This document shows positions 10,279 to 61,454 of a DNA stretch of 64,000 nt, piece after piece (position 1 is the stretch's first letter; each line of letters opens with the position of its first letter). The position numbers and the translations under genes are program-made. Origin of the DNA: Entoloma clypeatum (lineage: Eukaryota; Basidiomycota; Agaricomycetes; Agaricales; Entolomataceae); NCBI GenBank assembly GCA_963565915.1, contig OY751492.1, forward strand, positions 3,906,001-3,970,000, given 5' to 3'. Below the pieces are notes generated by a model. That model saw nothing but the letters and a program-made list of their open reading frames with translations. It was not told the origin of the DNA and did no database searches.

Positions 10279-10325
10279 CGTTAGGTTCACCCAGAGCGAA
10301 GAGAGCAACTACCAGACAAGTCAAG

Positions 10326-15639: not shown

Positions 15640-15676
15640 GTAGTCTGTGAGGACACAGACCTTGAGGAGAGGAACA

Positions 15677-31331: not shown

Positions 31332-32193
31332 CTACTGGGTTTTGGCCTTTTTGGCCGGCGGACCGTCATCCTCTGACTCTTCCTCCGGTTCTCCCTCCGC
31401 CTCCTCTTTCTCCGCTTGCAGTTCCGCAAGCTCCCCGTCTGCCAACCCCTCGACCTCCCCCTCGTCTTTTTCCTCGTCCTCTTCCTCTCCTTCTTCCTCT
31501 TCTCCGTCCTCCGTCTCTGACTCCGGAGCCGCCGCCTCCAGCAGGAAATTCCGGTAGGCGAGGTGGTTGTTCATGATTTGTACCTGCCGGAGCAGCGCCC
31601 AACCGACCCTCGCCGACTGCTCCTCCCTCTCTTCCAGAGCCTCCCGGAGCCCCCGGAGCTCCTCCGCGACCCCTGCGCCGCAGCAGTTTTTCGCCCCGCT
31701 CGCAACAGCTTCCTCTGTCCTTCCCCGCTTCCGCTTCGCCCGCGTCTCGCCGGCCCTCAGGCATACCCGTTTGCCATCCTTGCACCGCTGGCATGCAGTG
31801 CCTTTTCCCTGCCTAAGGAGATTGTCAGTAGGAAAAAGAGAATGGAGAAGTGGGTACTCACAATGCCCACTTGCATTCCACCTTCGCCTGCACACAGGCC
31901 TGACACGCCTCCCCCCGGACCTCCGATTCCTCTGCTCCGCTCTCCGCCCTCTGTTTCCCCGCCTTCTTCGCCCTCTTCTTCTCCGCCTCCGCCTTTGCCT
32001 CTGCCTTTGCCTCAGCCTCTGCCCTCTTCTCCGCCTCTGCCTCCCTCGCCCTCCTCTTGGCCTCCGCCTTTTTCCTTGCCTCCGCCTCCTCCTTCTCCTT
32101 GCGTACCTGCGCCAGACAGCGCAGGAGCTCCTCTTTGGAGTCGTCGAGGTTGGCGCTGGAGCACGCGGGTTGTGTGTTTGAGTCTTGGGGCAT
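31332..32193 (-). CDS. Antisense spliced Zn(II)2Cys6-like protein of B
   Basis: Exon 1 runs 32193-31862, the intron 31861-31813 (GTGAGT, branch-like CTGAC, TTAG; 49 nt, phase 2), exon 2 31812-31332; 270 residues. An Ala/Glu/Lys-rich coiled coil precedes CQACVQAKVEC. Splicing adds CQRCKDGKRVC, giving CX2CX6CX10CX2CX6C. A helical domain, a long acidic stretch and the basic end PAKKAKTQ follow. It converges with pol, with 64 bp between stops. An upstream in-frame ATG at 32286 is possible; 32193 was chosen because its distance from the LTR matches F and I. A nuclear DNA-binding role is inferred from the cysteine spacing and basic tail only. Confidence 0.7.
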
Positions 32194-32312: not shown

Positions 32313-33015
32313 TGTTATATCCGTCTCCGAATCTCCAATCCACTCCGATTGTCCTCCGACATTCCGGACATCCGTTACCTCCGCATCTCCGCATGTTGCC
32401 ATTGTGCATTTCATATTCATAACTCCATGCCTTTATGCATTTCATATTCATATTCCCGTTTACTTATGCATCGCCTTTTCCACATGGTCCGTTGACCGAC
32501 ATCTCCGAGGTTTGTTACAGTCGCTGGCAACTTACGCCACAACTCCGGACCTACTCCGACCATCTCCGTAAAGTAATATCATTTAGGTATTTAAGCTCGT
32601 ACCATACCTGTAGTTCCTCAGTTCGAATATCAACAAAGTTCACTCCTCTACTCCCCGTTCATGCCAGAGATCCTCGCTGTGGTACAATACACCGACAACA
32701 TTCTCATCTACTGCTCTTCCTCCATCGTTACCCTTCGATGAGCTCAGTACTGTGTCCGAGTCACAACTCCGACGTCGTCCGACCACTTCCACCTCAACGT
32801 GTCTCTCACTGAGATCTCTCCGAGGACCTCCGCACCTCCGACCTCTCCTCCGATTGGGACACCTTATCCAACAAACGGCGGCGCAACACATACATTGAAG
32901 CCATGTCCCTCCCCTTCATCGTTCCTCCGCATTTCCGGAGTTCCGCTCCGGTCTCAGTCCTACGTCCGACCTCCGACGGACTCCGACGAAGCTCCGACTT
33001 TTCACCTACTTAACA
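32313..33015 (+). repeat. 3' LTR of B
   Basis: 703 bp, preceded by AAGAGGGGAATAC and followed by the TSD TCCTC (33016-33020). Confidence 0.93.
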
Positions 33016-33020
33016 TCCTC

Positions 33021-34760
33021 ATTCCATTCCCATTCCTGATCCTTTTTGGTTAGATCATTCAGGGGTTTGGCAATGTCCAAGTAGTGTCTGATAAACCTCC
33101 AATAGAAGTTTCCAAATCCAAGGAAGGATTTGACCTGTTTCACAGTCACAGGTTCCGGCCATTTTGCTATCCCCGATAACTTAACAGGGTCCATCATGAT
33201 TTTGTTTTCTTTGATAATCAGTCCGAGGTATTCGCATTTCCTGACTCCAAATTCGCATTTTTCCAGGTTGAGATAGAGATCGTTCTCTTCCATTTTCTTA
33301 AGTACGCGGAGTGTCCGTTCAGTGTCGATTTCATCATTGATCGAGAATATGAAGATGTCATCCAAATAAATGAACAACCATCCCTCTTCAAGTTCTTCTT
33401 TGAAAATTTCATTCATCATCGCCTGAAACGTGGGGGGCATGCCTGCCAGTCCAAAAAAGGCAACCAAGGGTTCATACAACCCTCGATTGGTTTTGAATGC
33501 AGCCTTCCACTCATCGCCAGGTTTGATCTGTACGTTGTTGTATCCCCAATGCATGTCCAGTTTGGTGAAGACCTTTGCTCCTTTCAGTTTGTCCAGTAAA
33601 TCTCTGACCAGGGGTAACGGGTATGCGTTCTTCACCATTCCTTCATTCAATCGCCGATAATCCTGACATGGTCTGAGTTTGTCTGAGTCCTTTTTTGCCA
33701 CGAAGAAAAAGGGTGATGCCATTGGTGATTTCGAGGGTCTGACATATCCTTTTCGAAGGTTCTCATCAAGGAACTCGTCCAATTTTGTTTGTTCTTCTGG
33801 TGACAAAGGATAAACCTTACAGTCTTTCAGGGTGAAGTCCGGTTTTAAGTCAATTGGATGGTCCCATGGTTTATGTCCCGGTAATCTCTCAGATGCCGTT
33901 TTCTCAAACACCTTCTGATACTGATCATATCGTTCTGGTAGTTCTTTCCTTGGTTTGTCCGTGGTGTCCGTATTGTGTGAGAGGTTCTGGGAGATCGAGG
34001 TTTTGGCTTGGATCCAAATATCCTCAATGGGTTCGTCTGTAGCGACACATGTCCCAAATAGGTCGAGGTCATCGTCTGATTCTTCATCTATCCTTTTCAG
34101 GATAGGTCCATTTGCCGGTAGAGCCTCCTTTTTTTGGTTTAAGGGTCTCTTCATCACTAATTTCCTCTATCATCGCATAGATCTTTTGTTCGGGTTTTTC
34201 TTTCATCCATGCAGCAATTGCAATGGGTTTCTTGTCTTTTGATGCCAAGAGCTTGTCAAATTTCTTCCTCATGACTCCTGCTAGGGTCTTCTTGAACCTG
34301 ATATTTCAATATCCAAGGTTTCTTTTTCCCAATCAATCTTCGGGTTGTATTGTTTCAACCATGGTAACCCCAAAATGGCGGTTTCCTTTCCAAGTCCAGT
34401 GACCAAGAATCTGACGTTGAGTTCTTTGTCATCAATCCAGATCTTCTTCCATGTGCAATGGGTGATCGTTCCTTCTTTGTTCTTTGTTCCGTCCACATTG
34501 AACACACAAATGGGCTTTAGTAATGGAATAAGCTCCATTCGGTTGGCTGTGGCGAACTTCTGATCCAAGAAGGTTCCTCCTGCTCCTGAGTCTATCAGGG
34601 CGTTTATCTTTAGTTTCTCATCAATGCTTTCTCCTTCTCCTGACATTGAAATGGGGATCGAAAAAGATTTGTCATTCATGTCGGCTACAGTTACAGGGGA
34701 TAGGGAGATTGAAAACTGAGCGGGGGCTGACATCGGTACAGGCCACTTTATTGAAAACCC
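33021..34760 (-). pseudogene. pol: Element A pol, 5' half: protease and RT
   Basis: After the -1 shift the frame gives protease ALIDSGAGGTFLD (about 34600). It meets TAG 34281 and another stop, continues in a different frame (34272 to about 34130), then returns. RT spans about 33860-33120 with intact FIYLDDIF (about 33370). The frame is cut at 33021 by B, inside RNase H, and continues at 19910. Protease, RT and RNase H wording is typical Ty3/Gypsy. Confidence 0.88.
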
Positions 34761-35671
34761 TGTTTCTCCATCTCGGAGATTAAGGTGTCTTGTTCTTCAT
34801 TTGGTAAGTCTTTAAAAATGCCTCGGATATGGGCATATGCATCGGAAGCTTTCTTGAACGTGTTGTTCGCAGCCGGGGTCTTTCCTCCTTTGTGTGCATC
34901 AGCACGATGTCCTGCCTGATGGCAGACGAAGCACAACCCTTTCTTGAAGTGGTCGTCTCTCTCTTCAGCAGTTAGCCGGTCAATGTCCATGGCATTCGGA
35001 TCTGGGGCGAAGTGCGTGTTTCGGGGTGCAGGGTTATAGTTAACCTTGAACTTCTTCTTTCCCCCATCGGGCCTAAGCCTTTGAGAGACCGCTCTGGCTC
35101 TCCTCCACTGGTTGTCCAATCTGGACGCCATGGTGTACCATTCGTCAACTGTTCCTGGGATCTTGTCCAGGCCCAGGATCTTGTCTCGGAGCGCGTGTGG
35201 CAACACCTCCATGAAATAATCTTTGAGGGATCGCTCCTCTGTGATCAAACTCTCTGCAACCCATAGTTTGAATTTTTCAACAAATTCATCGGCTGTCATG
35301 CCTTCCATCTTCTGCATTTTCATCATAGTCAACGCATCTCCTTCTTTGTCAACCGGGGAAAATGGTTTCCTCAGTTTTTCAATGAAGTCTGTGTACTTCG
35401 GGTAGGTGGGTACTCCGGCGGTGGTGATGTCTCTGTACCAAGACTCTTTCCACAGCCTGGCCGTTCCTCCTTTCATGTATGAGACCGTGAAGAGGATTTT
35501 CTTTTTATCGGAGTTGTAGATGTCGTCGTTCATTTCCAAATATAAGTTTGCATCGAACAAAAATTCTGACAGCTTTCTCCTGTCTCCATTGAAGATCGCC
35601 GGTGGGCTGATCTTGATCTCTTTGTCTGGGGTTCTTGCCTGAGAAGTCATTTCTACAGGTGCTGGTTTCAC
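34748..35671 (-). CDS. gag: Element A Gag
   Basis: A 307-codon frame from 35671. The capsid domain spans about residues 20-190 (FNGDRRKLSEFLFDANLYL and later helices). One CCHC-like finger has CFVCHQAGHRADAH, in which the final cysteine is replaced by histidine. The true start may be ATG 35816 (MTTADTVQKSNLLF): the gag frame stays open upstream to about 35805 and would join it through a single-base shift. Located between the primer site and pol. Confidence 0.8.
   Translation of the reverse strand: MKPAPVEMTSQARTPDKEIKISPPAIFNGDRRKLSEFLFDANLYLEMNDDIYNSDKKKILFTVSYMKGGTARLWKESWYRDITTAGVPTYPKYTDFIEKLRKPFSPVDKEGDALTMMKMQKMEGMTADEFVEKFKLWVAESLITEERSLKDYFMEVLPHALRDKILGLDKIPGTVDEWYTMASRLDNQWRRARAVSQRLRPDGGKKKFKVNYNPAPRNTHFAPDPNAMDIDRLTAEERDDHFKKGLCFVCHQAGHRADAHKGGKTPAANNTFKKASDAYAHIRGIFKDLPNEEQDTLISEMEKQGFQ
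34754..34760 (-). promoter_or_regulatory. -1 frameshift site of A, G GGT TTT
   Basis: The canonical heptamer GGGTTTT is in register with gag codons, one codon before the gag stop TAA (34750-34748). The -1 frame reads on through the ATG at 34733 into protease. Confidence 0.65.
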
Positions 35672-40150: not shown

Positions 40151-41765
40151 TCAACGCACAGTGTCTCGACGTGTCAGGCAAAACGAGTCGAATATCGCGG
40201 CGGCGATCCGCCGCGGAGCTCCCAGATGACATCGGTAGAAGTCACGGACTAGGCGCGGAGCGTGGACATTGTCTTCTGCTTCCCAGGAATTCTCTTCGTA
40301 GCCATATCCCTTCCATTTGACCAAGAATTGAAGCTTGCCTCGATGCAGTCAGCTGTCCAAGAGGTTTTCAACATTGTACTCCAATTCTTCTCCGACTACC
40401 GTTGGAGGCGGAGGAGAGCGGACTTGGCATTGGAAAGGGTCGTCGGGAACTGGTGAAAGTTTGACGACATGGAATACTGGGTGAACACGGGACATGGAAG
40501 GGGAAAGGCGAAGTTCGTAGGCATGTGTTCCGACAGGTCGGACCACTGGGAAAGGGCCTATGTATTGATGTGCAAGTTTTTTTGTGAGTCGGGTGGTTTT
40601 GAGGTCTGATGAGTCTAAAAAGACCTTGTCCCCCGGGCAGAATGTTGGAGTGGTGCTCTGATGCTGGTTGTAGTATTGCACCATGTCGTCTTTTGCCTTT
40701 GTCAGTGCTGCGCGAGCCTCCTCTAGAGCGGACTTCATCCGCTGGCTGAAATCTGCTATCGCCTCGATCTCCATCTGCTTCTCGCGAGGTTCGAATCCCA
40801 TGCGCAGATGGTGGCCGGTGTCAATGTAGAATGGAGTTTGACGTGTCGATGCATGAACATGGTTGTTGTATGCAAATTCAGCCACGACAACCTCCGCCAC
40901 ACTATCCTCCAGTAACCCCTCTTGGATTCCCTGTCGGACCTGGTGGAGGACGTCGCGTTCTTCCCTTTGAACAGTTACCCCACACATTGCTCGCACTGCA
41001 AACAATTCTGGTCGAAGAAGGATGATGTTTTCATTGTCCCGCGATCCGTCTCCATGGTCTGCTCATTGGGACAAAGCGTCGGACTTGCCCATTGACTTGC
41101 CAGGTTGATGGTGCATTTTGAAATCGAAACGAGCGAGGTATAAGGACCATCTAGCCTGTCGTCAATTTAGTTTTTGAGCTGTCATGAAATACTCAAGATT
41201 TTTGTGGTCCGTCCAAATCTCCACTGTCTTCTCCGCTCCTTCAAGGAAGTGCCTCCACTCCTCCAATGCGTGGACCACCACCAACATCTCCTTGTCGTAG
41301 ATCTCATAGTTGCGTTCCACCAGACTAAGGCTTTTGGAATAGAATGCGACAGGGTGCCACTTACCGTCCTCTGTTGGTTGGGACAGTACTGCTCCGGTTG
41401 CAAAGTCCGAGCTATCCACTTCTATCCGCCACTCCTTTCCATGATCAGCTAAGACCAGGATCGGAGCGGATGTAATCCTCCGCTTCAACTCCGCAAATGC
41501 GGACACTTCTCCCTCCCTCCAAGACCAGAGTTGCCCTTTCTTTGTGAGCTCGAAAAGAGGGCACACGATGTCTGAAAACCCTTCAATAAAACGGCGATAG
41601 AAGTTAGTGAATCCCAGAAAGGACTGTACTTCTCGGACATTTGTCGGAGCGGGCCATAAATGACCCTGTTGCCCCGCTGTCGAGTAAGGCCTTTTGTGAT
41701 AGTGTGTCTTTGGTGTTGGTAGTTTCAAGAACTATGTCTAGTTCAATAGAATTGGGGGAGTGAGC
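40151..41765 (-). pseudogene. pol: J pol with internal deletions
   Basis: One frame with three TGA stops (41162, 41063, 40349). It starts in protease (ALLDSGATG, about 41680) and jumps directly to the end of RT (TNVREVQSFLGFTNFYRRF), so the catalytic half of RT is gone. RNase H follows (EVDSSDFATGAVL). Integrase is reduced to its C-terminal part (VAEFAYNNHVHASTRQTPF), missing the catalytic core. A chromodomain (LQFLVKWKGYGYEENSWE) ends at TGA 40151. Each internal TGA falls where Arg is expected. Confidence 0.82.
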
Positions 41766-42240: not shown

Positions 42241-42657
42241 TGTTGAAACTTTTCCCATCACGTAGATTAGATTAGATTAGATTACATCACGCGACCTTTA
42301 CATATCTTCATTACATACTTGTTTGGTTGGTACAAACAGTAGTACGGTATATAAGACCAGGAAACTGTCAATATCAACAAGTTGTCTCTTGACTCTTAAC
42401 CAGCTCCATCGCTCTCACCAGCCTCAACCGCTCTCACCAGCCTTACCCCCCTCCAAACCATGTAAGTGACTATAGCGGTATCGTAGAGTACTTCCACTGT
42501 AGCCGTGTTGCTCAGTACACCTGTGGCTAGCGCCCAGGTGGAACTTCAACAGGTTATGGGCCCCGGATAGCAGAGGGACCTGGGAAACGCTGGCAACAGC
42601 GAGTACCTGCCCACTCTACCCTGGTTGGCAAAGAACCGATCGAAAGATCTAGGTTCT
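42241..42657 (+). mobile_element. Copia E: left end (5' LTR, primer site, leader)
   Basis: LTR 42241-42551, PBS 42552-42564 and leader to 42657, where F2 begins. The left flank ATTTA (42236-42240) matches the flank after the Copia LTR at 54806-55116. The two LTRs look identical, including variants absent from the LTR at 49328. They are therefore the two ends of one element. Confidence 0.88.
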
Positions 42658-43190
42658 TGTCACGTAGCGTGTTTCTCAACGTCGGACGAGTCGGAGCGGA
42701 GTAGCGGAGGAGCGGAATGCGGTAAGTGCAACGTTGGCAGAAAGGACCTGGCTTCAACTTGTGCGTTGCGCCCCACTCTTTGATGTGGTCCTCGATTTCG
42801 GATTGGCGGATGTCGGATGAGCGGATGAGCGGATGAGCGGAGGTGACGGAGGGAATGCTCAAAGGCAAGTAGAGACGGATGCGAATGAGGTGTAACGTAT
42901 GATATTTGAACTGAGGTTCTACGACAGGTTTGTACACTATTTATAGTAGACTAGAATGATCAGCATTACTATAAGTGATGTGCAGATATTGGAGTTGACC
43001 ATCGGAACATTCGGAGTACGGAGAGTAACAAATGAAAAGTGAACAACATATGTCTACTTGTAAGTATGGTTGAGATGTTACGTAGTAGAAGTATATTCAA
43101 TATAAATAGAATGTTGTTGGAGCGGATGTCGGAGCGGATGAAATGTCGGAGTCGTCGGATAAGTCGGATGTGAATCGTATGGTTATGACA
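42658..43190 (-). repeat. 3' LTR of F2
   Basis: On the plus strand TGTCACGTAGCG...GGTTATGACA, the reverse of the F1 LTRs. Confidence 0.92.
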
Positions 43191-43321
43191 GTATTTCCCT
43201 CTTAGGGCCGAACCCTGAGGCCCAGATGAGGTAATCCACGTGACCGTTGGTTGAAAAGCTTTGTGCGTGATCTTTCTCTCTTGTCACCCAACCACAACAT
43301 CTATCCCGACGCCTATCCGTT

Positions 43322-44340
43322 ATGTCCGCTGAAAACTCACCCCTCGCCGCTCTTCGTGCTGAAAGGGAGCGCCAGAAGAAGGTCACCGAAGAGTTGGAGA
43401 GGAAACTGCAGGAGGCAGAGGAGCGCGCGAAGGAAGATGCAGAGCGCGCGGAGGCGAAGAGGGCGGCGAAAGAGCGGAGACGAGCAGAGAGGAAGGCAGA
43501 GAAGGCGAAGGCGAAGGAACCGGTCGCGGGTGCAGGTGCGGATGCGGAGGCGGATGCGGATGCGGATGCGGCGAGTGCGGAGGTGAAGAAGGTCCGGCTG
43601 CAGGGGGTTTTCAAGAATATGCCTGCGAGTTACGAGCAGGGGAAAGAGGATTGCACCTCCTGCTTGAAAGCGGGGGACTTGTGTTTTTGGCCATCGGAGT
43701 GAGTTTTTCCTATTTCTTTATACGCTTCGTTATTAACTTGTTCTTTAGGAATGACAATGCTTCGTCGTGCTGGCGGTGCCAGCGTTTAAAACGAAGCTGC
43801 AGAACGGGAGCGGAAGCGGAGTCGGAGGTGAAGCGGAGGATGACCAAGGCGGTGAGGGTCGGAAAGGCTAAGGTGGCAGGTGGTGCGACGAAGAACGCGA
43901 AGGCGGGATCGTCCAAGGGAGAGGGGACCGCGGAGGGATCGCGGATAGCCGCAGCGTCGGAGGAGCCGGAGTTCATGCCGGAGGGGTTTGGTCCGCCGGA
44001 GGTGGTCATAGGCACGGAGGTGGTGAGAGGGCTTAGGAGCATGATAAGGGAGATGCGGCTGATAAAGGCGGAGTTGAAGGAATTGCGGGAGATCAAGGAG
44101 CTTTTGACGGTTATCGCGTGGAGGGAGGATTCGGAGGCTTCGGAGGAGGGATCCGACGAGGACGAGGATGCGGAGGAGTATGATAGGGTATTGGAGGAGT
44201 TGGGAAGGGAGGTAGAAGAAGAAGCAGAAAAAGAAGAAGAAACGAAGAAGCGGAAGCGGATGGAGGAAGCGGAAGAGGAATCCGGATCGGAGTGGAACGA
44301 GGAGACGGAGGGGGTATCTAACAAAAAACAGCGAAAGTAG
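43322..44340 (+). CDS. Antisense spliced Zn(II)2Cys6-like protein of F2
   Basis: Exon 1 is 43322-43698, the intron 43699-43748 (GTGAGT, ATTAAC, TTTAG; 50 nt, phase 2), exon 2 43749-44340; 322 residues. The N-terminal half is a Glu/Arg/Lys/Ala coiled coil (RERQKKVTEELERKLQEAE). The first triad is CTSCLKAGDLC. Across the splice comes CWRCQRLKRSC, giving CX2CX6CX11CX2CX6C, the fungal binuclear zinc-cluster spacing. After it lie a basic patch, a helical region, a strongly acidic tail (about 44140-44300) and the basic end NKKQRK. The gene is antisense to F2 and converges on pol (44 bp between stops). DNA binding is inferred from cysteine spacing alone. Confidence 0.75.
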
Positions 44341-44384: not shown

Positions 44385-47300
44385 TTACAAGCGCGATAAG
44401 GGGCCTGGCTTAGTTGGTTGAGCGGAGTGGAAGTCCGCTACCGTATCCGCTGCGTGTTCAAGCTCAGATGCGGGTAACCAAGAAAACTCTTCACTGGTGT
44501 CTTCATAACCTAACCAGCGGACGAGGTAAAGGAGTTTGCAGCGTCGTCTTTTATCGATCTTTGAGTCGACGATTTCCGCAATTTCGTATTCGGTTTCTCC
44601 GTCCATCTCGAGCGGAGGCGGAGGAGATTGTATCCGATTTGGAATCTCGTTAGGAGTTGCTGGTTCGAGCATGGATATGTGGAAGACGGGGTGTATAGCA
44701 CGCATAGTGTCGGGTAGACGTAGTGTAAAGGAGTGCGTGCCGGGTTGGGCTATGATTTCAAATGGGCCAGCATATTTGTCGGATAACTTTTGGGTGGGTC
44801 GTGTGGTGCGGAAGAACTTAGCTTTAACAAAGACTTCTTGTCCGACGCGGAGCGGGGGAGGCGGAGAACGTCGGACGTCTGCAGGGCCTTGATAACGTTG
44901 TTGTGCCTCTGCGACAGCAGTCTTTAGTTCTTGATGTAATTCATCTAAGTCGACGATGTATTGTCGAGCTTTATCGGATGCTAGATCACGTTCCGGATGG
45001 AGTGTAATGTCGGGGTGATAACCTTTGTTGGCGAAGAATGGTGATACACCTGTGGTGGCACTCGGAGTGTTGTTGTAAGCGAACTCCGCAAGCGGAAGCA
45101 AAGCGGACCAGTTGTCTTGCTGGTAGTTGCAGAAAATGCGGAGGTATTGTTCGAGTGTCTGGTTGGTGCGTTCGGTTTGACCATCGCCTTCAGGGTGATA
45201 TCCAGAAGTGAAGTGAAGTCTCATATCGAGGGCTTTTGCAAGAGAGCGGAAAAAACGGGAGACGAATTCAGGTCCGCGATCGGATGTGACGTTTTGCGGA
45301 ACTCCGTGCTTGGAAAAGACGTGAAGCACGAAAAGGTTTGCTAGGTCTTCGGATGTGCAATTAATGGTGGTAGGGATGAATATGCCTTGTTTAGTGAGGC
45401 GGTCTACAATGACCAGAATCGCATCGGAGCCAGCGGATGTCGGAAGGGGTTCAATGAAATCAATGGAAATAGAATGCCAGGGACGTTCAGGAATAGGGAG
45501 TTGTTTAAGCAGACCGTAGGGTTTATGACGTTGGGGTTTGGCGCGCATACAAGTGGTACATGACTTGCAATACTTTTTGACGAAGTCGCGCATTCCAGGC
45601 CAAGTGTATTCTCGTTGGATAAGACTAATAGTCTTATTTTGACCAGGGTGTCCAGCGAGGATATGGTCGTGCTTATTGCGGAGGATGCGGAGACGGAGGT
45701 CGGATGAGTCGGGAACATAGATACGTCCATTGTGGAGTAGATAACCTGCTTCATTCACGATCCAGCGTGGATTAGGATTGTCGAGGAAAGAGGTATAAAT
45801 GGGATCAGTCGGAAGAGCGGAGAGGATGTCGGAGCGGAGCTGATCTGTATCCATGATGATTGTGGCACGGAGGACGGGTGTATATAACTCTGTTGCGCGA
45901 AGTGAAGTGGTGAGCTGTTCTTGTGTGAAGATGGGTTTGAAGTTGCTTGGGTTGATGGACGAATAGTCGCTATTTCCCTCTTTAGGGTAGATGTCCCATC
46001 GTCTACTTAAAAGATCGGGCTTCGTACCTAAACGGCCAGGGCGGAAGCGGATGACGAGATTGAACTGGCAGAGGTATTCGGACCAACGAGCTTGTCGACG
46101 TGATAAAATCTTGGTAGTAGAAAAGTACTCAAGATTTTTGTGGTCCGTTATGACATCGATCGGAGCAGCGGAGCCTTCAAGGTAGTGACGCCAAACCTTG
46201 AATGCATCGTGGATCGCTAATAGTTCTTTGTCGTGGGTGTCATAGTTTAACTCGGGAGGTGTAAAGGTGCGGGAGTGGAAAGCGACCGGATGGATTTCGT
46301 CGTCGGAGGTGCGGATGGAGAGGATCGCACCCAAAGCGTAGTCGGAGGCATCGGTTTCGACGATAATAGGGCTGTCGGGAATCCAATGCATAAGAACAGG
46401 TGCCGTGGTAAAGGCTTTCTTCAAAGTTTTGAAAGATTCGCGAGCGGAGTCGGAGAAGTGCCATTGTGTGTTTTTGCGGGTGAGTCGAGTGAGCGGAACG
46501 GTGATTTCGGAGTAGTAAGGAATGAATCGTCGATAAAAATTGGCAAAACCTAAGAAAGACTGAATGTCTTTGACCTTCCTTGGTTCAGGCCAATCTTGAA
46601 TAATTTTGACTTTCTTATCCGACATGCGGAGGCCTGTCGGAGAGAGGATAAAGCCAAGGTATTCAACAGTATCCGTAGAAAACTCGCATTTGTCTGCGCG
46701 TGCGTATAAGCCGTGTTGTCGGAGACGTCGGAGGACTTCGCGGACATGCTTCCGATGCTCGGAGGGAGAGTCGGAGTAGATGAGGATGTCGTCGAGATAT
46801 ATGGTAACATACTTATCAAGCAGGTCGTGGAAGATGTCGTTCATGAAGCGTTGAAAAACGGCTGGGGAGTTGGTGAGTCCAAATGGCATGACAAGCCATT
46901 CAAAGGACCCGTAGCGCGTGCGGAAGGCGGTTTTCCATTCATCTCCTTCCGCTATGCGGACGAGGTGATAGGCGTGTCGGAGGTCGAGAGCCGTATAAAC
47001 ACTGGCTTTTCCAGCGGTCTGGAGAAGGTCGGATATGAGCGGAAGCGGATATCGGTCCTTCTTTGAGATTTTGTTAAGACCACGGAAATCGACGCAAAGA
47101 CGAAGGGAGCCATCCTTTTTACGAACGAAAAGGACGGGAGCACCGTGTGGGGAGGAAGAGGGTCGGATGAATCCAATGGTGAGGTGTTCGTCAATGAATT
47201 CACGGAGGGCATTGAGTTCGGTTTGTGAAAGGGAGTAGATCGGACCGAACGGAGGAGCAGAGCCCTCTTCAAGTTCGATTTTGAGGTCGTAGGTACGGTG

Positions 47301-48068
47301 GGGTGGAAGAGTGTCTGCTTTTCCTTTACTGAAGACGTCAGCATAGTCGTGGTATTCTTCGGGTACGTTTGTCAAGTCGGGGGTGTCGGAAGCGGATGCG
47401 GAGTGAGCGGAAACGGAGGGAGTCGAAAGGTGAAGTCGAAAGGATTGTGTACCAGGCAATTTGCATGCCCTCATAAATGCGGCTGCGTTAATGAGTGAAA
47501 TCTGCGGAGCGGACTGCGGAGGTACGATCGGAGGTTCCGGAGGAGGAAGCGTAGCTGTCCTACCTTGGGAGGAGGTCGACGTCGATGTCGGAAACGGCTC
47601 TTTTTGCATCTGTGGACGGAAAGTGATACTGCCCAATACCCAGTCAATCATAGGATTGTGGCGGGTGAGCCAGTTGTATCCAAGAACCACGGAAGAAGCG
47701 GAGTCGAGCGGAGTAACATAAAAATCCTGTTCAAAGGATTCACCTGAAAGAAAACATATAGGTATTGTTACAACTTGAGTGATAAACGCGTTAGAAGAAC
47801 CATCGAAAAGCTTTAGTTCTAAGGGTGGAATAGCGGAGGTCGGAAGATCATAGGCGGAGGAAAAGTTATTGTCAATAAAACAGTGAGTAGATCCTGAATC
47901 AATAAGTGCTGGGACAGAATCTGAGGGGAAAAAAGAAGATGAGATATTGATACGTAAAGAGTTCGGATCGGAGAGAGCGGACGCGTTAAGTCGGATGGGA
48001 GCGGAGGCACGGAGAGAGTCAACGCAGTCCTCAGACCGTGCTTCATGAGGACCACTGCCTATTTTTTT
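44385..48068 (-). CDS. pol: F2 Pol, intact
   Basis: The -1 frame runs from the A7 site to TAA 44385, about 1225 codons without a stop. Protease ALIDSGSTHCFID (about 47890) is followed by RT with [11 protein letters not shown] (about 46790) and RNase H ETDASDYALGA (about 46340). The HHCC finger has HPGQNKTIS...CTTC (about 45650-45550). The integrase core has SIDFIEPLP, TSDRGPEFVSRFF and HPEGDGQTERTNQ. The chromodomain has LLYLVRWLGYEDTSEEFSWLP (about 44500). All catalytic residues I can check are present. This is the reference copy of family F in the window. Confidence 0.93.
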   Translation of the reverse strand, partial: KKIGSGPHEARSEDCVDSLRASAPIRLNASALSDPNSLRINISSSFFPSDSVPALIDSGSTHCFIDNNFSSAYDLPTSAIPPLELKLFDGSSNAFITQVVTIPICFLSGESFEQDFYVTPLDSASSVVLGYNWLTRHNPMIDWVLGSITFRPQMQKEPFPTSTSTSSQGRTATLPPPEPPIVPPQSAPQISLINAAAFMRACKLPGTQSFRLHLSTPSVSAHSASASDTPDLTNVPEEYHDYADVFSKGKADTLPPHRTYDLKIELEEGSAPPFGPIYSLSQTELNALREFIDEHLTIGFIRPSSSPHGAPVLFVRKKDGSLRLCVDFRGLNKISKKDRYPLPLISDLLQTAGKASVYTALDLRHAYHLVRIAEGDEWKTAFRTRYGSFEWLVMPFGLTNSPAVFQRFMNDIFHDLLDKYVTIYLDDILIYSDSPSEHRKHVREVLRRLRQHGLYARADKCEFSTDTVEYLGFILSPTGLRMSDKKVKIIQDWPEPRKVKDIQSFLGFANFYRRFIPYYSEITVPLTRLTRKNTQWHFSDSARESFKTLKKAFTTAPVLMHWIPDSPIIVETDASDYALGAILSIRTSDDEIHPVAFHSRTFTPPELNYDTHDKELLAIHDAFKVWRHYLEGSAAPIDVITDHKNLEYFSTTKILSRRQARWSEYLCQFNLVIRFRPGRLGTKPDLLSRRWDIYPKEGNSDYSSINPSNFKPIFTQEQLTTSLRATELYTPVLRATIIMDTDQLRSDILSALPTDPIYTSFLDNPNPRWIVNEAGYLLHNGRIYVPDSSDLRLRILRNKHDHILAGHPGQNKTISLIQREYTWPGMRDFVKKYCKSCTTCMRAKPQRHKPYGLLKQLPIPERPWHSISIDFIEPLPTSAGSDAILVIVDRLTKQGIFIPTTINCTSEDLANLFVLHVFSKHGVPQNVTSDRGPEFVSRFFRSLAKALDMRLHFTSGYHPEGDGQTERTNQTLEQYLRIFCNYQQDNWSALLPLAEFAYNNTPSATTGVSPFFANKGYHPDITLHPERDLASDKARQYIVDLDELHQELKTAVAEAQQRYQGPADVRRSPPPPLRVGQEVFVKAKFFRTTRPTQKLSDKYAGPFEIIAQPGTHSFTLRLPDTMRAIHPVFHISMLEPATPNEIPNRIQSPPPPLEMDGETEYEIAEIVDSKIDKRRRCKLLYLVRWLGYEDTSEEFSWLPASELEHAADTVADFHSAQPTKPGPLSRL

Positions 48069-49327
48069 GACTCAATCTCCTTACTTTTTTCCTTGGCTTG
48101 AGTGCCAACTTGGGCGGCTTTCCCTTTAGCCTTGGAAGCGGAGGAGGTGGACTTGGGACAGTCCTTGACAGCGTGTCCGACGCTACCGCAGAATAAGCAA
48201 AGGTTATTATCGAAACGACGTTTGCGTTCTTGATACGTCAGTTTGCCGTCTTTGCCTAATTTACTGGAGAGGTCGGGTTTCGGAGCGGATGTGGAAGCGG
48301 AAGCGGTAGCGGGAGCAGAGGGTTTGGTTGATGATGTTTGTGGAGTGGATTGGTTCGGAGCGGATTGTTTTTTGTCGGACTTGGGAGTGGGTTTATCGGT
48401 TCTGGATTTCTCTCGTTGACGTTCCCAGTAGCGAGCGTCAATAGTATGAGCCGCGGATCGTAGGTCTGGTAAAGACTTGATCTTGGGTTGTTGGGAGAGG
48501 ATGTCCTTGATCCGATCCGGAAGTCCGACGTAGTAGCGGTGTCGGAGGGAGTTTTCATCCCAGTCAGTCTTGGTAGCAAGACGTTGGAATTCAACGTTGT
48601 ACTTCAATATCTTTTGATTTTCCTTCATCCGTAGGTTGTCCAACTGTTCTTCGGCTTCGCCCTGAGGGTCAATGATACCAAACTCGGAGCGGAGAAGTCG
48701 GACGAACTCGGGGAAAGAACCCCGCCAATTGGGTTCATCATCATCTAGAATGAAGGGTTCAAAAAATTCGAGTGCTGTGCCTCGGAAGTAAGACATGGCA
48801 AAGTTGACTTTGGAATGTTCTGAGTCGAAGTTGTCGTTGTCGGAGAAGTAAAGTTTGCATTGTAAAATGAATGCGGAGAGTTTGCGCGGATCGGATCCGT
48901 CAAAGGTATCCGGTTCGTTGGCATACGACTTTTTCTTCTTTGTATCTCGACGTTTCAACTCTTTGGTCATGAGCAGAATGGCTTCAGCTAGATTGGGTTC
49001 CTGATCCGGATTGGAATCGGAGTCGTCCAAATCTCCATGTAAACTACCGTCGGAAGGAGGAGGAGATCCTCCTGGAGGTCCGCCGAATAAGCCAGAATTT
49101 AGAGGTGCGGAGGGTTCCGTTGGTGGGTTTAGTGGAGGACTGGCAGGAAGTGGTGGGAGCTGAGAGTCGGAAGAAGGCGGAGGAACGGATGGTCCGGGGG
49201 TAGGGGCGGATGATGATGCTGTGGCTCCTCGAGGGGTAATGGTTACATTGCGTGTTCCTCGAAGAAAAGCAGAGCGTGGTGTGGAAGATGAACGTTCTGC
49301 TGCTGCACGAGCAGTCCTAGTTGTTCG
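48059..49327 (-). CDS. gag: F2 Gag, N-terminus replaced by Copia LTR sequence
   Basis: Open from 49327 down to TAG 48059. It has a Ser/Pro-rich region, the capsid (about 48990-48450), a linker and the CCHC finger CLFCGSVGHAVKDC (about 48195). The first native codons are cut off by Copia D. Translation could in principle begin inside the Copia LTR (ATG 49348, MMGKVSTRTT), which happens to stay in frame. The last codons form seven A residues before TAG. Confidence 0.87.
   Translation of the reverse strand, partial: RTTRTARAAAERSSSTPRSAFLRGTRNVTITPRGATASSSAPTPGPSVPPPSSDSQLPPLPASPPLNPPTEPSAPLNSGLFGGPPGGSPPPSDGSLHGDLDDSDSNPDQEPNLAEAILLMTKELKRRDTKKKKSYANEPDTFDGSDPRKLSAFILQCKLYFSDNDNFDSEHSKVNFAMSYFRGTALEFFEPFILDDDEPNWRGSFPEFVRLLRSEFGIIDPQGEAEEQLDNLRMKENQKILKYNVEFQRLATKTDWDENSLRHRYYVGLPDRIKDILSQQPKIKSLPDLRSAAHTIDARYWERQREKSRTDKPTPKSDKKQSAPNQSTPQTSSTKPSAPATASASTSAPKPDLSSKLGKDGKLTYQERKRRFDNNLCLFCGSVGHAVKDCPKSTSSASKAKGKAAQVGTQAKEKSKEIESKK
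48062..48068 (-). promoter_or_regulatory. -1 frameshift site of F2, A AAA AAA
   Basis: Seven A residues (minus strand) in gag register, directly followed by TAG. The -1 frame continues IGSGPHEARSEDCVDS into protease. The site is altered in F1. Confidence 0.7.
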
Positions 49328-49637
49328 TGTTGAAACTTTTCCCATCACGTAGATTAGATTAGATTAGATTACATCACGTGACCTTTACATATCTTCATTA
49401 CATACTTGTTTGGTTGGTACAAACAGTAGTACGGTATATAAGACCAGGAAACTGTCAATATCAACAAGTTGTCTCTTGACTCTTAACCGCCTCCATCGCT
49501 CTTACCAGCCTCAACCGCTCTCACCAGACTCACCCTCTCCAATCCATGTAAGTGGTCAGAACGGTATCGTAGAGTACTTCCACTGTAGCCGGTTGCTTCA
49601 GTACACTTGCGGCTAGCGCCCAGGTGGAACTTCAACA
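49328..49637 (+). repeat. 5' LTR of Copia D
   Basis: TGTTGAAACTTTTCC...TTCAACA. It carries variants (for example CACGTGACC, and changes near 49490-49600) not shared with 54806-55116 or 42241-42551. Confidence 0.9.
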
Positions 49638-50000: not shown

Positions 50001-53000
50001 ATGTCTACTTCTCGCTCTGCTCTTGACACCATCACCCCCTTTGACGGCATTGACTACCAAAGTTGGGCCGAAAAGATGAAGTCCTACCTCCTCCATCAAG
50101 GAGTTTGGCGCCTCGTTTCTGGCGACATCACCCGCCCTGTGATCGCCGACTTCACCACCACGGTCTCCACCCCTGGTGCCACTGCTGCCGCCCCCCCTGT
50201 GCTAGCTACTACAGTCGACCAGCCCGGCTTCCGCAAGGAAGAAAAAGCCTGGATCAGGGACGACGACGTAGCTCTCGGGGCGATACGCCTGAAGGTCTCT
50301 GAGGCGATCAGACGCCACATCAAGGACAGCACCTCGGCACTTGGCGCGTGGAAAACGCTGAAGGATGCCTACTCCAAGGTATCCCCGGCCGTCATCTTCG
50401 GCGATTTCAAGGCCGCCGCCACCTACAAACTGTCTGGACGCGACCCAGTGCCTGAAATTGAACGCCTGGGGTCTCTCTTCGCCCGGCTCGCCGATTCAAG
50501 CTTTGTCGTCCCCGACCTGATGCAGGCAATGATCCTGGCCAATGCGATTCCCGACGCCTGGTCATCACTTTCCACCGCCCTTTTCCAGGTCTACGACGCC
50601 GACGATTTCACCTACAAAGCCGTCGCCGACAGCATCATCTCTGAATACCGGCGCAAGTACTCAATCGGGTCTACTCGTACGTCCAATGAGCAGGCCAAGA
50701 AGATTTCCGGGACAAAACGAAAGGGGCAGGACCCCAAATGGGAAAAGCAGCAAAAGCCGAGTACCTCGCAGAACGATGCTGACGAGCAGCCTAACTCGGG
50801 CGACCCAAGTACCGCTTCTGAAAAGAAGAAGGGAAAGGGACGCTGGCGCAATCAGAAGAAAAGCGCTAACACTGCGGACAACACGTCCGACCATGTGGAA
50901 GAAACGGTTGAGTTTGTTGCTCCCGCCATCCACTTCCCTCCTCTCCCGCCACCGTCCTTCACCACCGTCACTGGGCGCGGGAAAACGACAAGTACTGCAC
51001 AGCCAGACTCTCAGCGGATGCAGTCGCTACTTCAGCGAATGAACCCGCCTCCATCCCAGTACACCGGGCTTCCTTCGGGCAAGCCGTCCGTGTGGAAGAA
51101 AAACGACCATGTTCGCAAACTCGCACGCGGCATTGGTGCTCGCCCCTCAGGGTCAAACCTTCGCATTCTGGATACGATTATCCCAGAAGAAGACGAAAGA
51201 CCGTCCAAGCAGCGTCGAGTTACTCCGCCGCTGGACCAAACCCTTAGGATGATGGACATAGACCATCAGAGCGAGCGTATGGGGCCGGACCAATTCGAAG
51301 ATGGGCTCATTGAACTTGACGGTTCGTCATCTTCCTCTCCTGAATCTGACCAATTAAGGAAAGCTAATAACACCTCCTTACAGACGTGTAAAATATTAGC
51401 TAGTACTAGTGCAGAATGTATGGATCACATTGACAACGATCTATATAAAAAATATACAAAGCACTTTGCGTCATGCACACACTGTAAGGAGAAAGAACGC
51501 GCACAATGGATCTTAGACTCCGGTGCCTCGTTACACTTTACCCATGAGTTCAAGGACTTCGCGTACTACAGGCCTCTCAAGGCTAAGCGATTTGTCCAAA
51601 CAGCTGAAAAGGGAAAGAAACTGGAAATTCTCGGAGTTGGGGCCGTTCCAGTACGGCATACCCTAAATGGGGAAGTAAAAACCCACCTTCTCCGACCTGT
51701 ATTCTACATTCCGGACATGGACACACGCCTATTGTCCCTAGGTGTCTTCCTTAATCACGGATACAAAGTAGACGGAATGCGTGGAGAAATCAACATCTCC
51801 AAAGGACAGAACAAAATACAGTTCTCGCCTCACATTCTCGGACAAACCATTTATTGGTTAGACACTGAAATACGCCTTGACCAGATCCATGCGATCTCTA
51901 GTGAAATCACTGTCGAAACCTGGCACAAACGCCTTGGCCACCCAAATGACCAAGCGCTCAATAAGATTCCCACCAGTACCAAAGGAGTACCCAAAACGCT
52001 AGTACGTGAGAAATCACAGGAAAGCTGCACGGGGTGTCTAAAAGGGAAAATGCCGAATCAATCTTATCCTAACTCAATGACAAGGGCTGTCAAACCCTTT
52101 GATTTGATCCATTCGGATTTGAAGCAGATATCCACGGCATCGTACCATAAGTACAAATATTTCCTTACCTTTTTGGACGATTTTTCATCCCATGTCTGGG
52201 TCGTCTTGCTTAGGAAGAAGTCAGGTGCCATCACGGCGCTGAAACAATTCCTTGCGATGATCCAGAATCAATTTGCCGCTACCCCTAAGAAGTGGCGGGT
52301 TGATGGAGGTGGAGAATTTGACGAATACAAGGATGTACTTGCCGATCATGGAATTCTGATCGATGTCACGCTCCCATATCAGCACCAACAGAATGGTAGA
52401 GCAGAAAGGATCAATCGAACACTATGGGAAAAATCTCAGGCATTACGCTTCGATGCATGCTTACCGCCCATGTGGTGGGAATTCTGTTTGGAACACGCAG
52501 CATTTCTCTACAACAGAACCCCCATGCAGCGTCTTGAATGGAAAACCCCTTACTTCAGGGTGACCAATGAGATCCCCGACATGTCTAGTGTCAGAGTATT
52601 CGGATGTCAGGCATATGTATATATCCCAAAGGAGAAACGTAGGAACTCCCTGGAATCAAGATCCCGATTGATGATTTATCTCGGATCGAAACCAGGGGTC
52701 AAAGGATACCGCTTCATGGATCCTGAGACCAACACGATTTTCATGGGCGGGAAAGCTATCTTTGATGAAAGCAAGTACCCTAGATGCCACATTGACCCGT
52801 TGCCAGAAAACCACCCAGAAATGGAAAACCCAGAGCCGGCTGATGAGTTTGAGGATCTCATTCCTGGCAGCAACGATGACGATAGTCACAACGAAACACC
52901 TCATATCCCAGTTCCCATTGAACAGGATCAACCTGAATCAGACAACGAACTGCCTGCCAGTGAGCCTGATGACGAACCACGAGTACCCACTCCACAACCC

Positions 53001-54728
53001 GAGCAAGTACCAGATCGACCGATCAGGGAACGACGAGTTCGGAAGATGCCAGGAAGCATCTATGGGGAAGACACTCCAGCATCTGATCTTGAAAAATTAG
53101 ATCGAAGACGGAGATTGGGCAGTCAAACGGCATGGATGAATGACCTCCTGATGGAGGCAATGTCAGTCCAAGTTGGCATCGTTGAAATGTCCCATAAAGA
53201 CATATACCCTCTTCCAAATAAAGAAGACTGGTATGCGGCTGAACGTAAAGAGCTAGATATGCTCAAACGCCGCGGGGTGATCACGGAGCTAGTACCCCTG
53301 CCTGCAGGGAGGAAAGCTCTAAGGAACAAATGGGTTTACAATGAAAAGTCCGATGGGCGTCTGAAAGCGCGCCTCGTCGCAAAAGGCTTCTCACAGGTAG
53401 AAGGGATCGACTTTGATCAGATCTTCTCACCAGTCGTAAGATATGAAACCGTCCGACTAATACTGGCATTGACAGCCCTTGAAGGGTGGTTCATGACTCT
53501 TTTGGACGTCTCATCAGCCTTCCTCTATGGAACGCTCCGTGAAGTCATTTACATGCGACAGCCTGAGGGCTACATAGTAAAAGGGAAAGAAAACCTTGTG
53601 TACCGACTATACAAAGCCCTATACGGACTCAAGCAGGCCGCATTAGCCTGGTGGAGGGAACTTGATTCCTCCATGAAAAAGCTTGGCTTTGTCCGGCTTC
53701 ACTCCAATGCGGGAGTGTTCATTCACAAAAGTACCAACGGGGAAATTGTAATTGCCGTCATCTATGTCGACGACTCTGCTTTTCTCGGCACAAACCGGGA
53801 ATATACGCTAGAAAAGAAGAAGGCCTTCATGACAACATGGGAATGCAGGGACCTAGGTCACCTAGTGCCCAATGGGGAACCAAAGGAATTTCTCTCAATC
53901 CAAATAAGGCAACGTGGGAAGAGGATCTTCATTGATCAAGTACCTTACCTTGAGAAAATTCTGGCACGCATGGGGATGAGCGAATCTAACGCCACCCATA
54001 CCCCACTCCCTACGGGCTACAAACCCATGGCGTCCGAAGATGAACCCAATGCGGAACTTCGATCCAAGTACCAATCCGTCATCGGATCACTCCTATATCT
54101 GATGATTGGAACGAGGCCTGACATCTGCTTTGCTGTAATCAAAATGTCCCAATTTCCCACAAATCCCACAAAACGCCATTTAGAGGTGGCTAGGGATATT
54201 TGCAGATATTTAAAGGCAACAAAAAATTACGCAATAATGTATGATGGGGACTCAGGGAAAGGGATCTATGCATTCACAGACTCCGACTGGGCGTCAGATG
54301 AGAACACGAGGAGGTCTATCACCGGCTTCTTCATATCACTGGCGTCTGGAGCAATAACATGGGTATCATCGGCGCAAAAAACCATTGCCCTCTCTTCTAC
54401 AGAAGCAGAATATATGGCGCTATCAGATTGCAGTCGCGCAGCAACATGGCTGAGAAGCATGCTTGCCGAACTTGGAATGCAGATCGGATCAGTACCGATC
54501 TATGGAGATAACAACGGCTCCATCTTTATCGCATCCAACCCTGTGACTGAGAAGCGATCCAAGCACATTGACATGCGATTCCACTTCGTCAGAGAAAAAG
54601 TCTCCGAAGGAATAATTACGGTCGAATTCATTGAAGGAGTGAACAACCCCGCAGACCTTTTAACTAAGAATCTGGGAAAAATCCTCTTTTCCAAGTTTAT
54701 CCCGTACTTCGGATTGATAAAAAACTAG
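50001..54728 (+). CDS. gag-pol: Copia Gag-Pol polyprotein, 1575 codons, intact
   Basis: ATG 50001 (MSTSRSALDTITPFDG) to TAG 54726 in one frame, so no frameshift is needed. The Gag part spans about residues 1-250. I see no CCHC knuckle, only CTHC before protease. The protease motif is ILDSGASLHF (about 51510). The HHCC finger is WHKRLGHPN...CTGC (about 51920-52040). The integrase core has IHSDLK, VDGGGEF and ENGRAERINRT-like wording (QNGRAERINRT, about 52390). RT has VYNEKSDGRLKARLVAKGF, LLDVSSAFLYG and IYVDDSAFLG (about 53760). RNase H has FTDSDWASDE and SSTEAEYMAL. Potentially functional. The recombination junction with E lies somewhere in this frame or its flanks. Confidence 0.95.
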   Translation: MSTSRSALDTITPFDGIDYQSWAEKMKSYLLHQGVWRLVSGDITRPVIADFTTTVSTPGATAAAPPVLATTVDQPGFRKEEKAWIRDDDVALGAIRLKVSEAIRRHIKDSTSALGAWKTLKDAYSKVSPAVIFGDFKAAATYKLSGRDPVPEIERLGSLFARLADSSFVVPDLMQAMILANAIPDAWSSLSTALFQVYDADDFTYKAVADSIISEYRRKYSIGSTRTSNEQAKKISGTKRKGQDPKWEKQQKPSTSQNDADEQPNSGDPSTASEKKKGKGRWRNQKKSANTADNTSDHVEETVEFVAPAIHFPPLPPPSFTTVTGRGKTTSTAQPDSQRMQSLLQRMNPPPSQYTGLPSGKPSVWKKNDHVRKLARGIGARPSGSNLRILDTIIPEEDERPSKQRRVTPPLDQTLRMMDIDHQSERMGPDQFEDGLIELDGSSSSSPESDQLRKANNTSLQTCKILASTSAECMDHIDNDLYKKYTKHFASCTHCKEKERAQWILDSGASLHFTHEFKDFAYYRPLKAKRFVQTAEKGKKLEILGVGAVPVRHTLNGEVKTHLLRPVFYIPDMDTRLLSLGVFLNHGYKVDGMRGEINISKGQNKIQFSPHILGQTIYWLDTEIRLDQIHAISSEITVETWHKRLGHPNDQALNKIPTSTKGVPKTLVREKSQESCTGCLKGKMPNQSYPNSMTRAVKPFDLIHSDLKQISTASYHKYKYFLTFLDDFSSHVWVVLLRKKSGAITALKQFLAMIQNQFAATPKKWRVDGGGEFDEYKDVLADHGILIDVTLPYQHQQNGRAERINRTLWEKSQALRFDACLPPMWWEFCLEHAAFLYNRTPMQRLEWKTPYFRVTNEIPDMSSVRVFGCQAYVYIPKEKRRNSLESRSRLMIYLGSKPGVKGYRFMDPETNTIFMGGKAIFDESKYPRCHIDPLPENHPEMENPEPADEFEDLIPGSNDDDSHNETPHIPVPIEQDQPESDNELPASEPDDEPRVPTPQPEQVPDRPIRERRVRKMPGSIYGEDTPASDLEKLDRRRRLGSQTAWMNDLLMEAMSVQVGIVEMSHKDIYPLPNKEDWYAAERKELDMLKRRGVITELVPLPAGRKALRNKWVYNEKSDGRLKARLVAKGFSQVEGIDFDQIFSPVVRYETVRLILALTALEGWFMTLLDVSSAFLYGTLREVIYMRQPEGYIVKGKENLVYRLYKALYGLKQAALAWWRELDSSMKKLGFVRLHSNAGVFIHKSTNGEIVIAVIYVDDSAFLGTNREYTLEKKKAFMTTWECRDLGHLVPNGEPKEFLSIQIRQRGKRIFIDQVPYLEKILARMGMSESNATHTPLPTGYKPMASEDEPNAELRSKYQSVIGSLLYLMIGTRPDICFAVIKMSQFPTNPTKRHLEVARDICRYLKATKNYAIMYDGDSGKGIYAFTDSDWASDENTRRSITGFFISLASGAITWVSSAQKTIALSSTEAEYMALSDCSRAATWLRSMLAELGMQIGSVPIYGDNNGSIFIASNPVTEKRSKHIDMRFHFVREKVSEGIITVEFIEGVNNPADLLTKNLGKILFSKFIPYFGLIKN

Positions 54729-54805: not shown

Positions 54806-55116
54806 TGTTGAAACTTTTCCCATCACGTAGATTAGATTAGATTAGATTACATCACGCGACCTTTACATATCTTCATTACATACTTGTTTGGTTGGTACAA
54901 ACAGTAGTACGGTATATAAGACCAGGAAACTGTCAATATCAACAAGTTGTCTCTTGACTCTTAACCAGCTCCATCGCTCTCACCAGCCTCAACCGCTCTC
55001 ACCAGCCTTACCCCCCTCCAAACCATGTAAGTGACTATAGCGGTATCGTAGAGTACTTCCACTGTAGCCGTGTTGCTCAGTACACCTGTGGCTAGCGCCC
55101 AGGTGGAACTTCAACA
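54806..55116 (+). repeat. 3' Copia LTR (from element E)
   Basis: 311 bp, apparently identical to 42241-42551. The following ATTTA (55117-55121) matches 42236-42240. Confidence 0.9.
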
Positions 55117-61290: not shown

Positions 61291-61454
61291 GTATTTTCCC
61301 CTTAGGGCCGAATTCATGAGGCCTAAGGACCTAGGTGGTTGGTGCATGTGAACTGCGTCATGTGATGCATTGGTTGAAAATACCGTCCGAGTGGTTCTTT
61401 CTTCTTGTTCCCCCATTCTCTTTTCGTTTCAAACTCTTCCGAAAAAACCTCAAT

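Follow-up and report, generated by a model that had tools for sequence, protein, structure and literature searches.

Several LTR retrotransposons carry an additional open reading frame (ORF) that lies between pol and the 3′ LTR and is read in the antisense direction. Members of this group, termed aORF-3R, include gene23 of Grande and the corresponding ORFs of RIRE2, Retand and PvRetro13, and the available excerpt of the report describing them treats what such antisense ORFs do for LTR retrotransposons as a matter still to be settled (PMC7264820). The same excerpt notes that the PvRetro13 ORF has an SMC domain and that GENE23 is nuclear (PMC7264820). The first-pass annotation of the DNA examined here mentioned antisense ORFs from some plant Gypsy elements. 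Such ORFs are indeed known there, but the group is not restricted to plants, as the fungal element Boty also has an antisense additional ORF (PMC7264820).

Two other systems are close enough to merit comparison, again as presented in excerpts of the cited reports. In Arabidopsis VANDAL transposable elements (TEs), the element-encoded protein VANC co-evolves with short motifs that stand in arrays (PMC5735166; PMC10398659). HTLV-1 HBZ and APH are antisense, spliced and mostly nuclear, and are driven from the 3′ LTR (PMC10186651).

Here we describe ORF2, a predicted antisense gene of a Gypsy element (F2) within a stretch of 64,000 nucleotides of Entoloma clypeatum DNA (hereafter, the window). ORF2 resembles the aORF-3R group in its position, orientation, presence in many copies and hints of nuclear or DNA-binding function, but the excerpted description of that group includes no zinc cluster, no conserved intron in an antisense ORF and no matching word in the element (PMC7264820). 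As with VANC and VANDAL elements, a TE-encoded protein is paired with tandem short motifs in the same TE, and the arrays depend on the family (PMC5735166; PMC10398659). Unlike that system, F2 is a retrotransposon rather than a DNA transposon, ORF2 is Zn_clus-like, the core word CGGA is common to three families, and anti-silencing is at this point only proposed. Like HBZ and APH, ORF2 is an antisense gene, predicted to be spliced and proposed to encode a mostly nuclear regulator of its provirus (PMC10186651), but no Pfam match to a bZIP domain was found in ORF2 and its DNA-binding motif is different. Finally, ORF2 shares with GAL4/LAC9-type Zn2Cys6 factors two CX2CX6C halves, a conserved lysine, coiled-coil-like regions, an acidic tail and CGG words, and it departs from them in that the halves are reversed, the cluster follows the coiled-coil-like region, and the protein is encoded by a retrotransposon.

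Searches of titles and abstract openings in the open-access literature yielded no Gypsy element with an antisense gene for a zinc-cluster protein and no half-swapped Zn2Cys6 domain, nor did they yield an antisense Gypsy ORF whose intron is conserved or whose element contains a corresponding DNA word. Antisense additional ORFs are known, and what appears to be new here is the zinc cluster, the conserved intron and the matching DNA word. The swapped half-clusters, the excess of CGGA and the counterpart genes in two other families of the window go beyond the first-pass annotation.

A predicted spliced antisense gene in a Gypsy chromovirus

ORF2 is located between the chromodomain Gypsy pol and the 3′ LTR, on the strand opposite to pol. 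Exon 1 (377 nt; 43322-43698, plus strand) encodes a coiled-coil-like region, a basic stretch and a first half-cluster, CX2CX6C. The predicted intron (50 nt; 43699-43748) is in phase 2, reads GTGAGT...CTTTAG and includes a TTAAC branch-like site. Exon 2 (592 nt; 43749-44340) encodes a second CX2CX6C half-cluster, an invariant lysine (Lys140), a helical middle, an acidic tail and an SNKKQRK end. Joining the exons gives a protein of 322 amino acids in which the motif CX2CX6CX11CX2CX6C occupies residues 111-143. Because this motif spans the exon junction, neither exon alone contains it. The 50-nt GT-AG intron, the 322-residue frame opposite pol and the cysteine motif created by the splice agree with the first-pass annotation, the coordinates of which are exact. 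Pfam matches in ORF2 comprise a Zn_clus-like match plus weak unrelated ones only.

The pol frame (44385-47690, minus strand) is convergent with ORF2, and the two stop codons lie 44 nt apart. RVT_1, RNase H, integrase core and Chromo profiles all score above their Pfam cut-offs, and the domain order of reverse transcriptase (RT), RNase H, integrase and chromodomain is that of a Ty3/Gypsy chromovirus. The 3′ LTR (42658-43190, minus strand) ends in TGTCA...TGACA, and gag (48059-49327, minus strand) encodes a CCHC knuckle that does not reach the Pfam cut-off. The F2 copy under study is truncated at its own 5′ end, on the gag side, where Copia sequence begins at 49327. A second F2 copy, with both LTRs present, is found at 1348-16977, interrupted by other insertions. 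When the F2 family was searched at the DNA level, 40 of 145 candidates were scored; all 40 exhibited 92-100% identity, and 12 of them round to 100%, which makes recent activity of the family likely.

The 131-nt gap between the LTR and ORF2 (43191-43321, plus strand), which may supply an antisense promoter and 5′ UTR, also holds a polypurine-like tract on the sense strand. Mean divergence among copies is 0.022 in this gap versus 0.039 in the LTR. The stretches upstream of ORF2 in F2 and in a related family (family 3; 61290-61454) have the words CTTAGGGCCGAA and TTGGTTGAAAA in common. The first of these, a word of 12 nt, lies near the polypurine-like tract, and both are possible antisense promoter words.

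Counterpart genes in diverged families

Two further, diverged Gypsy families within the window carry a counterpart antisense gene with an intron at the matching place and phase. In family 2, exon 1 (31862-32193, minus strand) and exon 2 (31332-31812, minus strand; CQACVQAKVECKWALQGKGTACQRCKDGKRVC) are separated by a 49-nt phase-2 intron. In family 3, a 48-nt phase-2 intron separates exon 1 (61455-61798, plus strand) from exon 2 (61847-62357, plus strand; CDRCIVKGVECERDENKSSCKGCVKDKKQC). The intron sits between the two cysteine triplets in all three families, and the linkers between the half-clusters measure 11, 10 and 8 residues in F2, family 2 and family 3, respectively. The charged, coiled-coil-like start, the six cysteines, Lys140, the acidic tail and the basic end are common to the three families. 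A scan of nine further loci, which looked specifically for motif-spanning splices, revealed a possible splice across a complete cysteine motif in eight of them, the exception being locus L073.

The pol DNA of families 2 and 3 is 72-74% like that of F2, and pol identity among the three families is 67-78%. The ORF2 proteins are beyond the reach of ordinary BLAST: with composition correction on, comparisons between families gave no match beyond 9 residues (E 0.12). ORF2 therefore evolves much faster than pol. The low E-values between ORF2 families that are obtained with the correction off reflect charged, low-complexity sequence, and we disregard them.

Searches with residues 96-255 of ORF2 returned no protein homologue at E 1e-3 among 421 candidates. 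A profile search, which scored the 7992 candidates with most words in common, identified a single protein, P0121 of the polypore Pilatotrama ljubarskyi (E 3.8e-3). This protein, annotated as hypothetical, has the ORF2-like layout of a charged helix, a half-swapped Zn2Cys6 motif and a long C-terminal helix. The best match of the ORF2 profile in the PDB (E 0.02), to helical stretches of ribosomal protein L9, was taken as chance. The protein collection does contain elements of this type, because a control search with pol returned 142 relatives at E 1e-10, with identity of up to 75% among the 120 listed; organisms are named for two of these 120, and both are mushrooms. No relatives of F2 pol were found in the viral contigs searched.

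Purifying selection on ORF2

ORF2 protein searches of the genome gave at least 160 matches for F2, at least 258 for family 3 and at least 163 for family 2, totals that count exons apart and are not copy numbers. From the best-scoring ORF2 protein matches we took 60 copies, one of which is the window copy described above. None of the counts uses loci L069-L072 and L074-L079, and L001-L008 duplicate later loci. The GT..AG splice sites are intact in 60 of 60 copies, the ATG in 59 and the cysteine motif in 52; the exon sum is a multiple of three in 53, and the ORF2 frame is wholly intact in 42 of the 60, although these counts lean high because copies were chosen by ORF2 protein score and elements without ORF2 were not counted.

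For the selection analysis we used 59 copies, leaving out L024, which is cut at its start, and grouped variants by the number of copies that carry them. Singleton variants probably represent, for the most part, changes that followed insertion, and variants present in many copies would have passed through active elements. Purifying selection across copies had been set beforehand, in the first-pass annotation, as a refutation test, and the signal is present: omega for ORF2 is 0.88, close to neutrality, among singletons (88 N, 38 S), 0.71 among variants in 2-5 copies and 0.31 among variants in six or more copies (33 N, 40 S; p 5e-4). Excluding CpG sites gives 0.88, 0.63 and 0.23 for the same three classes (p 0.006), and for pol, as a comparison, the values are 1.33, 0.79 and 0.33. 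Residues 1-100, which lie outside the query used for picking copies, yield 0.70, 1.11 and 0.22 (singletons versus common variants, p 0.023). For residues 101-322 without CpG sites, omega is 0.91, 0.71 and 0.33, a fall that is not significant by itself (p 0.12). Between subfamily pairs, ORF2 dN/dS is 0.38 in family 3 and 0.24 in family 2.

Indels point in the same direction. Lengths divisible by three account for 18 of the 23 distinct events in exon 1 and for 8 of the 10 in exon 2, whereas the LTR has 13 such events among 70 and the pol part has 39 among 137. When the six frames of the spliced stretch were compared, the selection signal was confined to ORF2's own frame and its mirror frame on the other strand, which gives the same signal because the wobble positions of the two coincide. 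We favor the plus strand as the coding strand on account of the cysteine motif, the splice sites and the conservation among families.

These patterns support the conclusions that ORF2 is under purifying selection across copies and that it is a real gene on the antisense strand, predicted to be spliced. They also bear on the possibility that the antisense RNA itself is the product, a regulatory transcript in which the frame is incidental. Ty1 provides a precedent, being regulated by antisense RNA according to the excerpted report (PMC12786077), but the low dN/dS, the in-frame indels and the conservation of splice sites and cysteines in three families are coding signatures that appear largely to refute this explanation, and we give it very little credence.

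A putative zinc cluster with its halves swapped

The consensus spacing of Zn2Cys6 domains is CX2CX6CX(5-12)CX2CX(6-8)C, and the lysine-rich half is the first half. The six cysteines of F2, family 2, family 3 and eight of the nine further loci conform to the consensus spacing. In ORF2, however, the lysine-rich half is the second one, and residues of this second half match positions 2-15 of the Zn_clus profile.

The first-pass annotation had assigned ORF2 to the Zn(II)2Cys6 class, and an HMM search against Zn_clus was among the checks that it proposed. The spacing bears out this assignment, but identity with the canonical domain does not stand. Against a curated cut-off of 21 bits for Zn_clus (PF00172), the F2 protein in its native order scores 9.5 bits as a whole and 15.8 and 16.5 bits as a cut-out domain. 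The native-order scores of family 2 (14.3 bits) and family 3 (12.5 bits) likewise fall below 21. P0121 in native order scores 18.6 bits whole and 23.2 bits as a cut-out domain.

The reverse order of the half-clusters probably accounts for the low native score of F2, as indicated by a test in which the domain was written twice in tandem, so that a second half precedes a first half. F2, which scores 16.5 bits as a single domain, then passes the cut-off with 26.0 bits in a match that crosses the join. The P0121 domain rises from 23.2 to 42.6 bits and, in its tandem form, aligns across the join to LAC9 (E 0.0044) and GAL4 (E 0.02). As a control, two hand-made scrambles that keep the cysteines score 13.9 and 13.6 bits. 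The tandem domains of family 2 (14.3 to 18.5 bits) and family 3 (12.5 to 16.8 bits) improve and still lie under the cut-off, which counts against the reading that we prefer below.

Lys140 is invariant in the three families and occupies the position that is the counterpart of GAL4 Lys18, as aligned for P0121. In the excerpt consulted, GAL4 Lys18 contacts the GG of CGG, and the Zn2Cys6 class typically reads CGG (PMC5559640). A single-sequence structure model, built for P0121 only, contains two long, mostly confident helices (residues 22-96 and 260-325), and the block-mean pLDDT of the cysteine region is 46-58, too low to be informative about the cluster. Taken together, the profile and alignment data make it likely that the ORF2 domain is a rearranged, half-swapped Zn2Cys6 cluster rather than a canonical one. 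If this is true, then a rearranged Zn2Cys6 cluster exists in nature.

A directional CGGA word throughout the element

Counts in the LTR (42678-43190), made on the ORF2 strand, gave 22 CGGA and 0 TCCG, versus 3.1 and 0.9 in dinucleotide shuffles. On the sense strand, TCCG ranks first of all 4-mers in the F2 LTR and also in a solo LTR (7353-7927, plus strand) that belongs to another, related family, is inserted in the second F2 copy and is TCCG-rich on its sense strand. The excess extends into coding sequence, as judged by synonymous-codon shuffles: F2 pol has 74 TCCG versus 38.5 expected (z 9.1, rank 1 of 255), and TCCG ranks 1 of 248 in F2 gag. The word also ranks 1 of 249 in the family 2 pol part and only 4 of 201 in the short family 3 pol part. 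The direction of the word is unchanged within ORF2, even though ORF2 is encoded by the opposite strand (CGGA ranks 5 of 194 there).

In four frames of other Gypsy elements TCCG ranks 178, 14, 41 and 6, the last being a fragment (41162-41728) with a modest excess (5 versus 2.1, z 2.6). Sense-strand TCCG density is 15.8-24.8 per kb in all five carrier segments (a single F2 copy supplies two of these), versus 1.8-6.9 in all nine other segments. These nine include Copia copies and other Gypsy elements rather than host genes, some of them may have an ORF2, and the sense strand is established for only part of them. Sense-strand CGGA density is 3.0-7.6 per kb in the carriers and 2.6-6.3 in the nine others. 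Three of the nine show a weak lean to one strand (p 0.04), with ratios of 2.0, 2.5 and 0.4 and a low density of the word.

One explanation for this distribution is that the word and the gene are two separate things, such that UCCG in the genomic RNA is a packaging or localization signal read by Gag, and ORF2 encodes an accessory protein that serves in nuclear import or as a nucleic-acid chaperone. The bias does follow the sense strand through gag, pol, the LTR and ORF2, and gag has its CCHC knuckle. Moreover, a strand bias of this kind fits an RNA signal more readily than it fits a site in double-stranded DNA, unless the polarity of direct repeats matters. We nonetheless consider this explanation unlikely, as it leaves unexplained both the match between a CGG half-site and the motif class encoded next door and the tandem 8-nt arrays with family-specific units.

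These arrays are highly directional. Four CGGA words at 8-nt pitch occur at 158 places genome-wide, and the reversed pattern occurs at none. We compared the locations of arrays and ORF2 matches within a radius of 9 kb, using the first 100 of the 158 places as listed, which collapse to 74 sites. Of these 74 sites, 57 have a listed same-strand ORF2 match of F2 or family 3 nearby (random expectation: mean 3.4, highest value 10 in 500), one is near an other-strand match only, and 16 have no listed ORF2 match nearby. Moreover, the array unit is family-specific. Among the listed sites, CGGATGAG-like arrays are found by F2 in 38 of 49 cases, by family 3 in none and by neither in 11, and of the 23 CGGAGGAT-like arrays, 17 have only family 3 nearby, one has both families and five have neither.

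Repeats with an 8-nt unit could also arise by drift, through slippage of CGGATGAG-like units on a background of biased composition, with no reader of the word at all. Among the 70 distinct indel events in the LTR, six are of 8 nt and four are of 16 nt, as slippage would produce. We also tested among copies the idea that binding protects the CpGs within CGGA, and protection was not seen: CpG retention in the LTR is 0.791 within CGGA and 0.790 at other CpGs. Two observations oppose drift. First, TCCG has the rank-1 excess in pol under synonymous shuffles. Second, the F2 LTR and the solo LTR at 7353-7927, which are 77% identical, have kept 16 of 22 CGGA words versus 39% of all 4-mers (p 0.0016). 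In light of these observations drift seems improbable to us, slightly more so than an RNA signal.

A proposed self-recognition mechanism

The main argument that the ORF2 protein recognizes its own element is that its motif class typically reads CGG and the element is full of CGGA, so the encoded motif and the element-wide DNA word point at each other. The explanation that we prefer, and to which we give roughly even odds, is that the antisense ORF2 protein works in the nucleus as a DNA-binding factor, uses a half-swapped Zn2Cys6 cluster to bind the CGGA words of its own element, and thereby recognizes and de-represses its own family. The antisense transcript would begin within the 3′ LTR or immediately inward of it. 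The ORF2 protein might pair via its coiled coils, Lys140 would read CGG, and the direct-repeat CGGA arrays might be filled cooperatively. The bound protein would then protect both the LTR and the body of the element from host silencing and so hold them open, as VANC proteins do for VANDAL elements. The first-pass annotation had proposed that the element encodes its own regulator, perhaps acting on LTRs or counteracting silencing. The CGGA arrays lend unexpected support to an action on LTRs, and the premise of a canonical Zn2Cys6 identity is not supported.

The direction of the effect on transcription can be weighed against a second precedent. A nuclear antisense protein could bind the CGGA arrays of the LTR and act as a brake on sense transcription, as HBZ and the APH proteins do, which would curb damage or set the timing of expression. 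The same logic of place and strand applies to HBZ and APH in the excerpted report (PMC10186651), and CGGA arrays are present in the LTR. On the other hand, CGGA is not limited to the LTR, and selection for a brake would presumably be hard to maintain on a many-copy element. We regard a brake as unlikely, about on a par with the RNA-signal explanation. Anti-silencing is favored because CGGA covers the whole element and because VANC offers a precedent for co-evolution of protein and motif, one that the family-specific array units also fit. As in VANC-type systems, a short motif is enriched and tandemly arrayed in its own element, F2. Against a VANC-like role, CGGA is not confined to noncoding regions and fills coding sequence too, with an excess in gag and pol, unlike VANC motifs as the excerpted report describes them (PMC5735166).

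The antisense placement of ORF2 offers a rationale for its intron, which would survive each round of copying because splicing from the genomic RNA is prevented. If this is true, antisense placement explains how an intron is kept by an element that is copied through RNA.

A broader version of this proposal, which we advance more tentatively and consider somewhat less probable than not, is that LTR retrotransposons have a form of self-recognition, in which an antisense, intron-shielded gene encodes a circularly permuted Zn2Cys6 protein. This protein would read a one-direction CGGA barcode, spread over coding and noncoding sequence and including a family-specific LTR unit, and would free the family from silencing. 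If so, a retrotransposon is a case in which selfish DNA came to recognize itself in a sequence-specific way through a protein fold other than that of VANC.

Neighboring elements in the window

Pieces of other Gypsy elements are present at 33006-35671 and 40349-41728 (both minus strand), and show little or no CGGA excess. A Copia fragment (42241-42657), consisting of an LTR plus about 106 nt, adjoins the outer end of the F2 3′ LTR, and a different Copia copy meets the gag end of F2 at 49327. A Copia-type element (50001-54728, plus strand) has a single open frame of 1575 amino acids and 311-bp LTRs at 49327-49637 and 54806-55116; a CGGA excess was not found in this element or its copies. More copies of the Copia element with the 1575-amino-acid frame are found at 20007-25753 and at locus L088.
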